Source: Bacillus sp. AZ43 (GTDB lineage: Bacteria; Actinomycetota; Actinomycetes; Mycobacteriales; Geodermatophilaceae). Taken from it: 64,000 bases of DNA. The stretch is from positions 1-64,000 of the forward strand of contig SPQJ01000003.1 of NCBI GenBank assembly GCA_004570425.1. Reading direction: 5' to 3'. Below the pieces are notes generated by a model. The model saw only the letters and a list, made by a program, of their open reading frames with translations, searched no databases and was not told where the DNA came from. How positions within the stretch are numbered: the stretch's first letter is position 1; each line of letters begins with the position of its first letter. Positions 5,548 through 25,918 of this stretch are shown piece by piece. A program made the translations under genes and the position numbers.

Positions 5548-6312
5548 GTGACCTCCGATCGTGTGGTGCAGGTGGCGGTGGCCCACGGGGTCGCGACGCT
5601 GACGCTGGACTCCCCGGCCAACCGCAACGCCCTGTCCCGGGCGATGCGGGCGCAGCTGCGGACGGCGCTCACCGAGGCGCTCGGGGACGACGCGGTGCGC
5701 GCCGTCGTGCTGGACCACGCCGGCCGGGTGTTCTGCTCCGGCATGGACCTGTCCGAGGCGGCGGGCGGCGGCGCGGAGGACCAGGGCGTCCGGGAGTTCC
5801 CCGAGCTGCTGGAGCTGATCTGGTCGGCACCGAAGCCGGTGGTCGCCGTCGTCCGGGGTCCGGCCCGGGCGGGCGGGGTGGGCTTGGCGGCCGCCTGCGA
5901 CGTCGTGGTGGCGGGCAGCTCGGCGACGTTCGCCTTCTCCGAGGTGCGGCTCGGGCTGGTGCCCGCGGTCATCTCCGCCGTCGTCCTGCCCCGGATGGTG
6001 CCGCACGTGGCGCACCGGCTGATGCTCACCGGCCAGGTCTTCGACGCCGGGACCGCCGCGGCCGGCGGTCTGGTCGACCTCGTCGTCCCGGACGCCGACG
6101 TCGACGGCGAGGTGCGGGCCCAGCTGGTCCACCTGACGGCCGGCGCGCCCACCGCGCTGGCGGAGACCAAGCGGCTGCTGCGCGCCGGGACGGCCCTCGA
6201 GTTCGACGAGCTGCTCCAGCTGTCGGCCCGGTTCTTCGCGAGCGAGGAGGGCCAGGAGGGCATCGCGTCCTTCCGCGAGAAGCGCCCTGCCCGCTGGGTG
6301 CCCGACGCCTAG
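5548..6312 (+). CDS. Enoyl-CoA hydratase/isomerase family protein
   Basis: 254 aa crotonase-fold protein. It has the family features DSPANRNALS near the N-terminus, GRVFCSGMDLSEA (oxyanion-hole region) and ACDVVVAGSSATFAFSEVRLGLVPA, in which the Glu of SEVRLGL sits at the second catalytic Glu position. It probably acts on an enoyl-CoA in fatty-acid or amino-acid degradation. The start is uncertain: GTG 5548 follows an AGGA, and ATG 5539 is in frame three codons earlier. Its UAG stop (6310-6312) directly abuts the UAG stop of convergent selB (6313-6315). Confidence 0.85.
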   Translation: MTSDRVVQVAVAHGVATLTLDSPANRNALSRAMRAQLRTALTEALGDDAVRAVVLDHAGRVFCSGMDLSEAAGGGAEDQGVREFPELLELIWSAPKPVVAVVRGPARAGGVGLAAACDVVVAGSSATFAFSEVRLGLVPAVISAVVLPRMVPHVAHRLMLTGQVFDAGTAAAGGLVDLVVPDADVDGEVRAQLVHLTAGAPTALAETKRLLRAGTALEFDELLQLSARFFASEEGQEGIASFREKRPARWVPDA

Positions 6313-8085
6313 CTACCGGAGCCGGCGGGTGTTGTCGGGCAGCCGGACGGTGACGCCGCGGGCGTCGAGCCACTCCATCAGCGGGACGGCGACGCGACGG
6401 GTGGTCCCCCATGCCTCCCGGGCGCGGCTGAGCGGAAACGGCTGGTCGAGCCGCGCGAGGCGGGCGCGCGCCTCCTCGGCGATGCCGGGCGCCAGGTAGA
6501 CGTTGTCGGCGATCCGCACCAGCTGCCCGCTGCGCACGGCGGCGGCCAGCTCGCGGGTGCCGAGCCCGGCCGCGACGAGGTCCGGGGCCTCGGGTGCGGC
6601 GAAGGGGTCCGCGGCCAGGCGCGCCCGGACGGCGTCCACGGCGCGCTGGACCTCCGGCGGCAGCACCGCGGCCTCGTCGACGACCCGGCCGTCGCGCAGC
6701 ACGAGCGGGGGTCGGACCAGGCCGCGCACCAGCTCGTGATCGGGCAGCTCCAGGGCGCGCCGCACCACCTCGACCGGTGGCCCGTCCTCCAGGGGACGAA
6801 GGGTGCGGTAGCGCGCGACGATCCCGGGCACCTGGGCGGCCAGCTCGCCGGCCAGCCCCGGCGCGAGCAGCCACGGCCCGTGCACCGTGGCGGCGTCGGG
6901 CACCGGCCAGCCCATCGCGGCGAAGTCGTCGGCCCGGACGATCCGGCGTCTCGCCAGGTCGGCGGCGGCTCCGGCGGCGCCCCCGGGCTGGGCCGCCAGC
7001 TCGGCGGCGCGCTGCCGGGCGGCGCCCCGGCGACGCAGCTCCGGCGGGTCGACGTCGCGGACGTCGGCGGCGAGCACCCGCCGCGATCCCGGGTCGCGGA
7101 GCAGCAGCCGGTCCCCCACCCGCAGCGGGAGCGCGGTGGCCAGGCGCAGCCGGACGACGAGCCCGTCGAGAGGGCGCAGCCGTGCCCCGACCGTGGCCGA
7201 GCCGACGTGCACCACCGGCTCGGCGGGCAGCCGCCCCTCCGGCTCGGCGGTGAGGGTGACGTCGATCTCGATGGCGGACCGGAAGGCACCCGGCGTGAGC
7301 AGCGCGGCGCCGCGGGAGAGGTCCTCGACGGCGACGTTCCGGAGGTTGAGCGCCACCCGCGCGGTCGCCGTCGCGCGCTCGACCGGGGCGCCGAGCGACT
7401 GGATGCGGCGGACCACCACCTCGTCGTCACCGAGCAGCAGCCGGTCGCCGGTTGCGACCGACCCTGCGGCGAGGGTCCCGGTGACCACGGTGCCGGCCCC
7501 GCGGATGGTGAACGCACGGTCGATCCAGAGCCGCACCGGCGCGTCCGGGTCCGCCGGCGGCAGGCCGGCGAGCAGGGCCTCGAGGGCGGCGCCGAGCTCG
7601 GCGACCCCCGCGCCGGTCACCGCGCTGACCGCCACCGCCGGGACGTCGCCCATCGAGGTGGCGGCGAGCCGCTCGCGGGCGTCGGCAGCGACGGGAGCCG
7701 GGTCGGCGAGGTCGGCCTTGGTGACGGCCAGCAGCGCGTGCCGCACGCCCAGCGCGTCCAGGACCGCGACGTGCTCGGCGGTCTGCGCCGACCAGCCGTC
7801 GTCGGCGGCCACCACCAGCAGGGCGGCCGGCACCGACCCGACGCCGGCCAGCATGTTGCCGACGAACTTCTCGTGCCCCGGGACGTCGACGACCGCGAGG
7901 CGGCGCCCCGAGCGCAGCGTCGTCCACGCGAAGCCCAGGTCGATGGTGAGCCCGCGGCGGCGTTCCTCCAGCCAGCGGTCGGGCTCCATGCCGGTGAGCG
8001 CGCGGACCAGCGCGGACTTGCCGTGGTCGACGTGCCCGGCCGTCGCGACGACGTCCATCGAGTTCACGCCCACGTCGTCGCTCAT
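6313..8085 (-). CDS. selB: Selenocysteine-specific elongation factor SelB
   Basis: 590 aa. SelB replaces EF-Tu for Sec-tRNA-Sec and binds the SECIS hairpin of selenoprotein mRNAs. The EF-Tu-like GTPase domain is at the N-terminus: P-loop GHVDHGKS at 17-24, a RRGLTIDLGFAW switch, DVPGHEKF (G3) and TKADL (G4). Beta-barrel domains and C-terminal winged helices (ending TRRVAVPLMEWLDARGVTVRLPDNTRRLR-like, typical) follow. ATG 8085 overlaps the selA stop (ATGA), fixing the start and showing co-translation. The gene ends in UAG, the very codon the neighbouring tRNA-Sec should read, so ordinary UAG termination must survive in this cell. Confidence 0.96.
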   Translation of the reverse strand: MSDDVGVNSMDVVATAGHVDHGKSALVRALTGMEPDRWLEERRRGLTIDLGFAWTTLRSGRRLAVVDVPGHEKFVGNMLAGVGSVPAALLVVAADDGWSAQTAEHVAVLDALGVRHALLAVTKADLADPAPVAADARERLAATSMGDVPAVAVSAVTGAGVAELGAALEALLAGLPPADPDAPVRLWIDRAFTIRGAGTVVTGTLAAGSVATGDRLLLGDDEVVVRRIQSLGAPVERATATARVALNLRNVAVEDLSRGAALLTPGAFRSAIEIDVTLTAEPEGRLPAEPVVHVGSATVGARLRPLDGLVVRLRLATALPLRVGDRLLLRDPGSRRVLAADVRDVDPPELRRRGAARQRAAELAAQPGGAAGAAADLARRRIVRADDFAAMGWPVPDAATVHGPWLLAPGLAGELAAQVPGIVARYRTLRPLEDGPPVEVVRRALELPDHELVRGLVRPPLVLRDGRVVDEAAVLPPEVQRAVDAVRARLAADPFAAPEAPDLVAAGLGTRELAAAVRSGQLVRIADNVYLAPGIAEEARARLARLDQPFPLSRAREAWGTTRRVAVPLMEWLDARGVTVRLPDNTRRLR

Positions 8086-9392
8086 CGCGGGAGGACCGCC
8101 AGCACCGCCGCGGCGAGGTCGTCGTCGGCGTCGGGCAGCAGGCTGCGCAGGTTCAGCAGCGTCCGGTCGTCCTCCAGGTAGCCGACCACCGGCGGGGCGC
8201 CCTGCCGCAGCGGCTCGGCGAACGACGGCGGCAGCGAGACGGCGGCGCTGGGCAGCGGATGCTCCGGCGCCCCTCCGCCGCCGACCCGCGCCTCGGCGTC
8301 GACGGCGACCGCGTCGACGCCCGCCGCGACCAGCCGCTCGGCCAGCGCCCTGGCCCGGGCGCGGAGCCCGTCGAGGTCGGCGGCGAGCATCCGCTGCACC
8401 GGTGGCAGCGGCCCGCGCAGCGTGGCCTCCAGCGCGGCCAGCGTCGTCTTGTCCACCCGCAGCGCGCGGTAGAGCGGGTGCCGGCGGAGCCGCTGGACCA
8501 GCTCGGCGCGGCCGAGCACGAGCCCGGCCTGCGGTCCGCCGAGCAGCTTGTCGCCGCTCGCGAGCACCAGGTCGGCGCCGGCGGAGAGCGCGCTCTGCAG
8601 GTCGGGCTCGTCGGGCAGCAGCGGGTGCGGGCGCAGCAGCCCGGAGCCCAGGTCGGCCACCAGGGGGGTGCCGGTGCCCGCGAGGGCACCGGCCAGCTCG
8701 CCCACCTCGACCTGCCGGGTGAAGCCCCGGACGACGAAGTTGGACGGGTGCACCTTGAGCACGGCCCCGGTGTCGGGTCCCAGCGCGCCGCGGTAGTCGG
8801 CGAGGGTGACCCGGTTGGTCGTGCCGACCTCGCGGAGCCGGGCGCCCGTGGCCTGCAGCAGCTCCGGGATGCGGAACCCGTCACCGATCTCGACCAGCTC
8901 GCCGCGCGCGAGGACGAGCTCCCGGTCCTGGCCGAGCGCGGTGGCGACCAGCGCGAGGGCCGACGCGCAGTTGTTCACGACGATCGCGGCCTCGGCGGCG
9001 GGGACGGCGTCGAGCAGGGCGGCGACGGCCGCCTCGCCGCGCTGCCCCCGACGCCCGGTGCCGAGGTCCAGCTCGACGTCGGTGGTGCCGGACGCCGCGG
9101 CGACCGCCTCGACGGCGGCGGGTGACAGCGGCGAGCGGCCGAGGTTGGTGTGCACCAGCACCCCGGTGGCGTTGAGCACCGGCCGCAGGCTGCTCGCGGT
9201 GCCGGGCAGCGAGGCCAGCACCGCACCGACCGCGTCCGGCGGGGCGAGCTCGCCGTCCCGGATCCGCTGCTGCACGCGCTGCACCGCGCCCTTCACCACG
9301 CCGCGGCCCAGCCGCTCGCCGGCCGCGGCGAGGCGCGGGTCGGCCAGCAGGGTGTCGGTGCGCGGCACCTGGCGGCGGGGATCGGGCGTCAT
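8082..9392 (-). CDS. selA: L-seryl-tRNA(Sec) selenium transferase SelA
   Basis: 436 aa. This PLP enzyme converts Ser-tRNA-Sec to Sec-tRNA-Sec using selenophosphate. The N-terminal SelA domain precedes VLNATGVLVHTNLGRSPLS (about 72-90). The PLP lysine is Lys282 in ASGDKLLGGPQAG. ATG 9392 lies exactly 7 nt after a TACGCT box, so I infer a leaderless mRNA starting at this ATG. The gene overlaps selB by four bases. It is divergent from a TetR-family operon. With selB, the tRNA-Sec gene at 12.3 kb and selD at 13.0 kb, it completes the selenocysteine pathway. Confidence 0.96.
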   Translation of the reverse strand: MTPDPRRQVPRTDTLLADPRLAAAGERLGRGVVKGAVQRVQQRIRDGELAPPDAVGAVLASLPGTASSLRPVLNATGVLVHTNLGRSPLSPAAVEAVAAASGTTDVELDLGTGRRGQRGEAAVAALLDAVPAAEAAIVVNNCASALALVATALGQDRELVLARGELVEIGDGFRIPELLQATGARLREVGTTNRVTLADYRGALGPDTGAVLKVHPSNFVVRGFTRQVEVGELAGALAGTGTPLVADLGSGLLRPHPLLPDEPDLQSALSAGADLVLASGDKLLGGPQAGLVLGRAELVQRLRRHPLYRALRVDKTTLAALEATLRGPLPPVQRMLAADLDGLRARARALAERLVAAGVDAVAVDAEARVGGGGAPEHPLPSAAVSLPPSFAEPLRQGAPPVVGYLEDDRTLLNLRSLLPDADDDLAAAVLAVLPR

Positions 9393-12245: not shown

Positions 12246-12341
12246 TGGCGGAGGCGGACGGGAATCGAACCCGCCTGACCGAGCTGCTCGGCCACGTCGG
12301 CTTTAGAGGCCGCGGGGGTCACCAGACACCCTGACGCCTCC
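12246..12341 (-). tRNA. selC: tRNA-Sec with CUA anticodon (predicted to decode UAG)
   Basis: The acceptor arms GGAGGCG (12341 downward) and CGCCTCC pair fully, then G73 and an encoded CCA (12248-12246). It has an extended D stem capped by a UGGU tetraloop and an 8-bp variable arm (TGGCCGAG / CTCGGTCA, CAG loop, one G-T). The T arm is GCGGG-TTCGATT-CCCGT. These long-arm features and the neighbours selA, selB and selD identify tRNA-Sec. The anticodon loop is C-T-C-T-A-A-A (12308-12302), so the anticodon is CTA (12306-12304) instead of the canonical TCA. UAG-directed selenocysteine with such tRNAs has been demonstrated in Geodermatophilus and Blastococcus (Mukai and colleagues, 2016). The eighth acceptor position is a U-C mismatch. 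Confidence 0.93.
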
Positions 12342-12984: not shown

Positions 12985-13992
12985 GTGACCACCGCACCTG
13001 CCCGCATCCGGCTCACCCAGTTCGCGCACGGCGGCGGCTGCGCCTGCAAGATCCCGCCCGGCGAGCTGGAGTCCGTGGTGGCCGGCCTCACCGCCGCCGG
13101 GCCGGCCTCCCCCCACGCCGAGCTCGTCGTCGGGCTGGACGACGGCGACGACGCGGCCGTCGTGCGGATCCCGGGCGGCCAGGGGCTGGTGCTCACCACC
13201 GACTTCTTCACCCCGGTCGTCGACGACGCGTACACGTTCGGCCGGATCGCCGCGGCGAACGCGCTCTCCGACGTGTACGCCATGGGTGGCACCCCGGTCG
13301 TGGCCGTCAACCTGCTCGGCTGGCCGCGGGACGTGCTGCCCGCCGAGCTCGCCGCGGAGGTGCTGCGCGGGGGGCTGGAGGTGGCGCAGTCGGCCGGCTG
13401 CCACGTCGGCGGCGGCCACTCCATCGACGACCCCGAGCCCAAGTACGGCATGGCCGTCACCGGGCTGGTCGACGTCGACCGGATCATCACCAACTCCGGT
13501 GCGGTTCCGGGGACGCCGCTGTCGCTGTCCAAGCCGCTGGGCGTCGGGGTGCTCAACAGCCGGATGAAGGCGACCGGTGAGGTGTCGGAGGAGGCGGTCG
13601 CCTCGATGACGACGCTGAACCGCGAGGCCGGGCGGGCCGCGGTAGAGGCGGGGATCCGCGCCGGCACCGACGTCACCGGGTTCGGCCTGCTCGGCCACCT
13701 CTACAAGATGGCCCGGGCCAGCGGCGTCACCGCGGTGGTCGACGCCGCCGCCGTCCCGTACCTGACCGGGGCCCGGGAGGCGCTGGCCGACGGGTTCGTC
13801 TCCGGTGGCACGCGGCGCAACCTCGACTGGGTGCGGCCGCACACCGATCTGTCGGCGGTCTCCGAGGACGAGGCGCTGCTGCTCGCCGACGCGCAGACCT
13901 CCGGCGGGCTGCTGCTCGGTGGGGAGATCCCGGGCGCGCCGCTCATCGGGGAGTTCGTGCCGCGCCAGGAGCACGTCGTCGTCGTCCGCTAG
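12985..13992 (+). CDS. selD: Selenide, water dikinase SelD
   Basis: 335 aa. It makes selenophosphate from selenide and ATP, feeding SelA. The N-terminal active loop reads GGGCACKI: Cys19 stands where other SelD proteins carry Sec or Cys, followed by Cys21 and the essential Lys22. SelD is therefore not itself a selenoprotein here. The AIR-synthase-like core includes LTTDFFTPVVDDAYTFGRIAAANALSD-type metal/ATP-binding sequence and VGGGHSIDDPEPKYG. GTG 12985 follows a TAGATT box by 7 nt. The gene ends in UAG and is convergent with the patatin gene, 3 nt apart. Confidence 0.96.
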   Translation: MTTAPARIRLTQFAHGGGCACKIPPGELESVVAGLTAAGPASPHAELVVGLDDGDDAAVVRIPGGQGLVLTTDFFTPVVDDAYTFGRIAAANALSDVYAMGGTPVVAVNLLGWPRDVLPAELAAEVLRGGLEVAQSAGCHVGGGHSIDDPEPKYGMAVTGLVDVDRIITNSGAVPGTPLSLSKPLGVGVLNSRMKATGEVSEEAVASMTTLNREAGRAAVEAGIRAGTDVTGFGLLGHLYKMARASGVTAVVDAAAVPYLTGAREALADGFVSGGTRRNLDWVRPHTDLSAVSEDEALLLADAQTSGGLLLGGEIPGAPLIGEFVPRQEHVVVVR

Positions 13993-25526: not shown

Positions 25527-25841
25527 TCAGTGGGCCAGCTTCAGCCCCACCACGCAGCCGACGATCCCGGCCAGCAGGAGGAGCTTGACCAGCGACACCG
25601 ACTCCGCGCCGGTGACCATCGCGTAGACCACGGTGAGCACCGCGCCGATGCCGACCCACACGGCGTACGACGTGCCGACGGGCAGCTCCCGCATGGCGTA
25701 GGCGAGGCCGGCCATGCTCAGCGCGAGCGCGACGACGAACAGCACGGAGGGACCCAGCCGGCTGAAGCCCTGGGAGCGGTCGAGCGCGGTGGCCCACACC
25801 GCCTCGAGCACTCCGGACACGACGAGGACGAACCAGGACAC
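25527..25841 (-). CDS. gdx: Guanidinium exporter of the SMR family (Gdx/SugE type)
   Basis: 104 aa with four transmembrane helices. The essential Glu in VSGVLEAVWATAL (about residue 13) and the following GFSRLGPS match the Gdx/SugE branch of small multidrug resistance proteins, rather than EmrE. These export guanidinium in exchange for protons as dual-topology dimers. GTG 25841 is used, with GGGAGG 7 nt before it. A guanidine-III riboswitch lies immediately upstream, which independently supports the guanidinium assignment. Confidence 0.92.
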   Translation of the reverse strand: MSWFVLVVSGVLEAVWATALDRSQGFSRLGPSVLFVVALALSMAGLAYAMRELPVGTSYAVWVGIGAVLTVVYAMVTGAESVSLVKLLLLAGIVGCVVGLKLAH

Positions 25842-25855
25842 GACGGACCTCCCAC

Positions 25856-25897
25856 GGGCCGTCTTGTCGCTGGCCGGGTACGGCACCCCTCGTCCGG
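25856..25897 (-). ncRNA. Guanidine-III (ykkC-III) riboswitch
   Basis: The leader RNA, read on the minus strand from 25897, contains CCGGACGAGG, then GCCGTACCCGG and ACAAGACGGC in the order and spacing of the class III guanidine aptamer. It differs by only a few positions from the well-known Thermobifida fusca example. It ends about 8 nt before the GGGAGG ribosome binding site of the SMR gene, so control is probably at translation initiation by ligand-dependent exposure of that site. Recognition is from memory of the motif. Confidence 0.9.
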
Positions 25898-25915
25898 GAG
25901 CCGGTTCACGGCTCC
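25897..25915 (-). terminator. Hairpin terminator after the MFS gene
   Basis: GGAGCCG-GTTCA-CGGCTCC forms a 7-bp stem starting 4 nt beyond the MFS stop codon. It directly abuts the riboswitch, insulating the lprG-MFS operon from the guanidinium exporter. Confidence 0.6.
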
Positions 25916-25918
25916 TCC

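Follow-up and report, generated by a model that had tools for sequence, protein, structure and literature searches.

UAG-programmed selenocysteine (Sec) in Geodermatophilaceae was reportedly described by Mukai et al. in 2016, with 75Se and mass-spectrometry evidence. A tRNA-Sec with a CUA anticodon is documented in three genomes of this family, together with formate dehydrogenase (FDH), UGSC and AhpC selenoproteins (PMC5330540), and passages of PMC10778597 and PMC8124441 mention UAG as a Sec codon. The locus analyzed here is like the published one in its CUA tRNA-Sec, in the TAG at the FDH Sec site and in its bacterial family, and nothing essential differs. The UAG-Sec system of the window is already known for Geodermatophilaceae, and the published precedent cited in the earlier note holds at the family level (PMC5330540). 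Beyond that precedent, we counted the trait over 112 genomes and found sister genera that keep UCA. Canonical actinobacterial UGA-Sec systems resemble this one in keeping selA, selB, selD, tRNA-Sec and fdh together, as on plasmids of Tsukamurella (NZ_LR134459) and Arthrobacter (NZ_CP110115), and the UGA-fdhA genes of the order have the loops GGTCT and AGTCT of the Sec insertion hairpin (SECIS) in common with the UAG genes. They differ in the anticodon, UCA, and in the codon, UGA, the latter as read in fdhA genes of the order. The two plasmid modules (L199, L200) comprise fdh, selD, a UCA tRNA-Sec, selA and selB, and the Arthrobacter plasmid was typed as conjugative. Pyrrolysine systems, too, combine a CUA tRNA with in-frame UAG, whereas the tRNA architecture, the neighbouring genes and the target site of the window are of the Sec type.

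The window, that is, the whole 64-kb stretch of DNA that was analyzed, belongs to contig C44 in a draft genome of 4.06 Mb (78 contigs, 99.99% complete). According to ARAGORN it contains a single tRNA gene, at 12246-12341 on the minus strand, where the letters read GGAGGCGTCAGGGTGTCTGGTGACCCCCGCGGC-CTCTAAA-GCCG... with the anticodon loop at 12308-12302. The anticodon at 12304-12306 is CTA, which pairs with UAG, whereas the canonical tRNA-Sec has TCA. Rfam, for which only the best family within the tRNA clan is given, called the gene tRNA-Sec (RF01852; 66.8 bits, cut-off 47, E 1.9e-11). The letters, ARAGORN and the Rfam score thus confirm the CTA anticodon in a tRNA-Sec that the earlier note had described, and the further traits it listed (a UGGU D tetraloop, an 8-bp variable arm and an encoded 3' GCCA end) are all present. 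In the variable arm, TGGCCGAG pairs with CTCGGTCA, forming eight pairs, one of which is G-U. ARAGORN labelled the gene tRNA-Pyl because of its CTA anticodon, and the gene could on these two points be taken for a pyrrolysine tRNA. However, the short variable loop of tRNA-Pyl is absent and a long arm stands in its place, the CCA end is encoded, tRNA-Sec is the best family of the clan, and the gene lies among selA, selB and selD in an organism with UAG at the Sec site of FdhA, which makes this assignment extremely unlikely. The CTA tRNA pattern was also seen in 55 viral contigs (L201-L255), in several of them within large tRNA arrays; no tRNA-Sec was present in the 20 of these 55 that were checked against Rfam.

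A second tRNA-Sec gene with a UCA anticodon had been named in the earlier note as an argument against its own reading. In the 99.99% complete draft genome, RF01852 and ARAGORN revealed no second tRNA-Sec of any kind. ARAGORN identified the other seven RF01852 matches of the genome as tRNA-Ser (three), tRNA-Tyr, tRNA-Leu, tRNA-Met and tRNA-Arg. The highest-scoring of the seven, tRNA-Ser(tga), reached 49.7 bits, above the RF01852 cut-off, and was rejected as tRNA-Sec, being a serine tRNA according to ARAGORN. Across the family, RF01852 matched in 108 of 112 genomes; the four without a match (G067, G071, G097, G098) are 72-82% complete. The CTA tRNA-Sec is present in all 16 genomes of the genus to which the window belongs, and its pattern in 101 of the 112 family genomes. 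Seven genomes (G066, G068, G069, G070, G072, G073 and G074, of the genera g5, g6 and g7; loci L035-L040 and L043) have TCA instead. Because the CTA anticodon is recurrent, its occurrence by chance is ruled out. The same recurrence refutes the view that a normal UCA tRNA-Sec was misread as CTA in sequencing or assembly; this view is also at odds with the loop-closing stem pair, which differs along with the anticodon (TCTTCAAAA with UCA, CCTCTAAAG with CUA), and with the target codon, which is TAG. We consider such an error vanishingly improbable.

The genes for Sec synthesis and delivery lie within 6 kb of the tRNA gene, as the earlier note had stated, and their matches exceed the NCBIfam equivalog cut-offs. 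On one side, at 0.6 kb, is selD (selenide water dikinase, 335 aa; 12985-13992, plus strand; TIGR00476, 389 bits), with no stop inside its reading frame. On the other side, at 2.9-6 kb, are selA (L-seryl-tRNA(Sec) selenium transferase, 436 aa; about 8082-9392, minus strand; TIGR00474, 421 bits), for which we inferred the ATG of MTPDPRR as the start codon, and selB (Sec-specific elongation factor, 590 aa; 6313-8085, minus strand; TIGR00475, 290 bits). SelA is 82% identical to SelA of Geodermatophilus sp. LHW52908. Both selB (6313-6315) and selD (13990-13992) end in UAG, the same codon that the system recodes; in Geodermatophilus sp. LHW52908 the stop of selB is also UAG and that of selD is TGA. 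Elsewhere in the window, a Guanidine-III riboswitch (25853-25917, minus strand; 67.7 bits) is located just upstream of a gene for an SMR family exporter (25527-25844, minus strand; Pfam, 78.4 bits).

The client gene is not in the window. The "complete machinery" that had been ascribed to this stretch holds for selA, selB, selD and the tRNA, but not for fdhA, which is on contig C38 (L017:2382-5675). This formate dehydrogenase gene is one frame with a single in-frame stop, a TAG at residue 187, and its product matches formate_DH_Act of NCBIfam with 1923 bits. In the alignment to 1H0H_A, QARI-C-HSATV of the query (C written for U) stands against QARI-X-HSATV, so that residue 187 corresponds to X, which we take to be the Sec of the solved D. 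gigas formate dehydrogenase. UGA at Sec positions would have spoken against UAG as the Sec codon; in fdhA the codon is TAG and not UGA. FdhA is present in 100 of the 112 family genomes, and among the matches listed each family FdhA covering residue 187 has one TAG. Of the 46 family loci that we read, 44 reach residue 187 and all 44 have TAG there; with three more loci, TAG occupies the site in 47 of 47 distinct family genes, and TGA in none of these 47. Seven family rows flagged as having both TGA and TAG turned out to have TAG, not TGA, at residue 187. Two of these rows have their TGA at query residues 1088 and 1090, and the other five alignments end at 1087 without an earlier TGA.

Outside the family, 24 FdhA genes examined codon by codon had TGA (17) or a Cys codon (7) at this position. 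In an order-wide sample, FdhA was found in 206 of 298 genomes (E ≤ 1e-200). Among the 150 matches listed, counted by eye, the 27 from the family had one TAG each, while the 123 from outside it comprised 115 with one TGA, seven without a stop and one with both (G321). Eighteen regions around UGA-fdhA genes outside the family were examined for a tRNA-Sec; ten hold one, and its anticodon is UCA in all ten. The FdhA with both stops (G321:C4, L273) has TGA at residue 187 and an extra in-frame TAG eight codons upstream. Two unusual copies occur in G079, one (C12, L100) without residues 171-200, the Sec site included, and the other (C4) a fragment (198-952) bearing a TAG. A further regularity concerns the Ile codon 186 directly before the Sec-UAG (L017:2937-2939 in the window organism), which is ATA in 47 of 47 family fdhA genes, although ATA accounts for only 36 of the 1828 other Ile codons of these genes, and residue 152 alone contributes 29 of these 36. 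Before the Sec-UGA outside the family, the Ile codon is ATT in 14 of 17 genes. From codon usage, ATA at codon 186 looks as if the sequence just 5' of the recoded stop had been under selection.

Directly 3' of the fdhA TAG is a SECIS hairpin whose stem covaries. In 38 distinct TAG and TGA segments, 97.4% of the cells of the 7-pair stem were paired and 20 were double-changed, and none of 500 shuffles attained the observed covariation score (related sequences can, however, beat shuffles without any structure). Sliding the stem reduced pairing to 31-64%. The double changes fell mostly on one pair, columns 18/30, formed by the third base of a Val codon and that of a Gly codon. Among the 47 TAG genes, 46 have the loop GGTCT and one has AGTCT; in the 17 TGA genes it is GGTCT (8), AGTTT (6) or AGTCT (3), whereas the middle T of the loop is lost in all seven Cys homologues. 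The stability of the hairpin is not unusual for its composition (z -0.47), and the folding energy does not stand out; the support for the hairpin comes from covariation and from the comparison with the Cys homologues. The loop being common to TAG and TGA genes, the SECIS was evidently retained through the codon change. A model of the FdhA-type SECIS, which is blind to SECIS elements of other shape, gave one strong match in the genome of the window, the fdhA site (72.5 bits; the next match had 17.1 bits), and fdhA is the sole client found there with this model. A search of the same genome with the UGSC profile (NF041046) yielded no match, and neither did the control.

We conclude that UAG almost certainly encodes Sec in the organism of the window, through a sole tRNA-Sec with a changed anticodon: the tRNA-Sec that we found reads UAG, the single in-frame TAG of fdhA is at the Sec site, and a covarying hairpin follows it. 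The assertion of the earlier note that UAG rather than UGA is the Sec codon is supported by these three observations. Charging, delivery and insertion are inferred from the gene content, as follows. The sole tRNA-Sec, its anticodon changed from UCA to CUA, would be charged with serine, which SelA and SelD would turn into selenocysteine; SelB would then deliver the Sec-tRNA to the ribosome by binding the SECIS just 3' of the fdhA UAG. Sec would be inserted at the UAG followed by a SECIS, and other UAGs would still terminate, since SelB binding to the SECIS after one UAG would confine Sec to that UAG and leave UAG a stop elsewhere.

A tRNA-Sec retains serine identity for SerRS. Together with the CTA anticodon, this could make the gene a general amber suppressor that places serine (or Sec) at any UAG regardless of context. 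Yet in a rough ORF count, 28 of 35 likely genes of the window end in TGA and seven, selB and selD among them, in TAG, so that UAG seems to remain an ordinary stop, and its reassignment does not look general. This stop codon use fits a context-bound recoding, and the covariation of the hairpin at the only in-frame UAG and the loss of its loop in Cys homologues also speak against general suppression, which we judge very unlikely. As for the advantage of UAG-directed Sec insertion, we suggest that a move of Sec away from UGA, which is the more frequent stop here, may have eased competition with release factor 2.

Codon and anticodon match across the family. With CTA in 101 of 112 genomes, UCA in three sister genera and TAG in 47 of 47 fdhA genes, the two appear to have changed together inside Geodermatophilaceae. 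We infer vertical descent and a switch of fdhA from TGA to TAG within the family. The ancestral TGA state is deduced from other families, because no FdhA of this type was found in the UCA genera g5, g6 and g7 at E ≤ 1e-100. Over the gene, identity between the CUA tRNA and the UCA tRNAs from the sister genera is 83-91% (five of seven compared, one of them cut at a contig end). In the SelA tree, two CUA and three UCA sequences from this family cluster together (99/98). This cluster is absent from the SelB tree, and the sister of the CUA clade is resolved by SelA only. In both trees, the two CUA sequences sit at the end of long stem branches (0.41-0.44), as if the Sec machinery had evolved faster after the codon switch.

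One relative, Geodermatophilus sp. LHW52908 (G058), may carry parts for both Sec codons, which may be new: passages of the open-licence PMC literature contained no report of two Sec codons or anticodons in one genome. Genomes with several tRNA-Sec genes have been reported (PMC5330540), and differing anticodons are not named in the excerpts of that paper. Strain LHW52908 has a CUA tRNA-Sec with selA, selB and selD on contig C11 and an fdhA with TAG. Its second tRNA-Sec, with UCA (81.8 bits; 76% identity to the resident CUA one), is on contig C17 (NZ_QVQH01000024.1), in an island at L058:1169-5476 (also L059, L101). The GC content of the stretch L058:1150-5600 is 61%, compared with 72-73% in the L058 flanks and 75-77% elsewhere on C17. 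Transposase genes flank it, a DDE-type fragment (L058:271-834) on one side and IS110 (6089-6865) on the other, with rve and Mu-type genes beyond, and an ALIL element is nearby (L058:9125-9253). The contig starts inside a DDE-type transposase fragment. C17 contains no N, and its far part is chromosomal, bearing the sole dxs match of the strain (E ≤ 1e-50), with 84-88% identity to ten other genomes of the genus. The join, however, runs through transposons, where a misassembly may have occurred.

An AhpD-like gene of the island (TIGR01926, 112.6 bits) contains a single UGA ahead of its terminal stop codon. This UGA is at residue 98, and in 2OYO, 6K40 and 2PFX the position aligned with it is the second Cys of CxxC. 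By this alignment, the UGA replaces a conserved active-site Cys. The hairpin after it has the apex AGUUU, which is the loop of six of the 17 UGA-fdhA genes. Relatives of this gene occur in 73 of the 112 family genomes, with the stop confined to the island copy. The second island gene, P0002 (L058:4496-5467, minus strand), has 324 codons with one in-frame UGA at codon 49; codon-position GC is alike on both sides of the UGA, and a Shine-Dalgarno-like sequence precedes the first ATG. Its hairpin, with an apex AGUU recognized by eye, is not the RNAfold minimum. P0002 had no match in Pfam, NCBIfam, PDB, plasmids or viral contigs, and a scan of genome contigs that reaches close relatives only returned its own record; a single-sequence AlphaFold model was unusable (pLDDT 35.7). 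We regard P0002 as a candidate for a new selenoprotein family or else two adjacent genes, the latter because an ATG follows the UGA. Neither island hairpin is unusually stable (z -0.29 and -0.43). P0003, between the two genes, gave only a sub-threshold match to RPE65. The island protein P0001 has no close relative in the viral contigs and distant relatives in 130 plasmid records.

One SelB was recognized in strain LHW52908. A second candidate (C1:333556, 206 bits) was rejected by eye as an EF-Tu beside EF-G, and a third, weaker match is on C13 (94.5 bits). No second SelA or SelD was found on C17. A similar tRNA occurs in six plasmid records; the best two of these have a full set of selA, selB and selD alongside it, unlike the island. 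With slightly less belief than doubt, we propose from gene content that LHW52908 could be a two-codon cell, in which the resident CUA tRNA-Sec would serve the UAG-fdhA, and a horizontally acquired island with a divergent UCA tRNA-Sec and UGA genes (for an AhpD-like peroxidase and perhaps for a new protein family) would use the resident SelA, SelB and SelD.

To summarize, in the system of the window a stop codon has changed its meaning in nature; anticodon and target codon would have moved together while the hairpin and the machinery stayed. For annotation, a pipeline expecting UGA would end FdhA at the UAG, and ARAGORN miscalls the tRNA as pyrrolysine. The sister genera that keep UCA make the switch datable. 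If the reading of the LHW52908 island is true, a mobile tRNA-Sec travelling with its clients would account for the entry of UGA selenoproteins into a lineage in which UGA has ceased to mean Sec. If confirmed, it would mean two Sec codons per cell and a route by which gene transfer re-expands the code.
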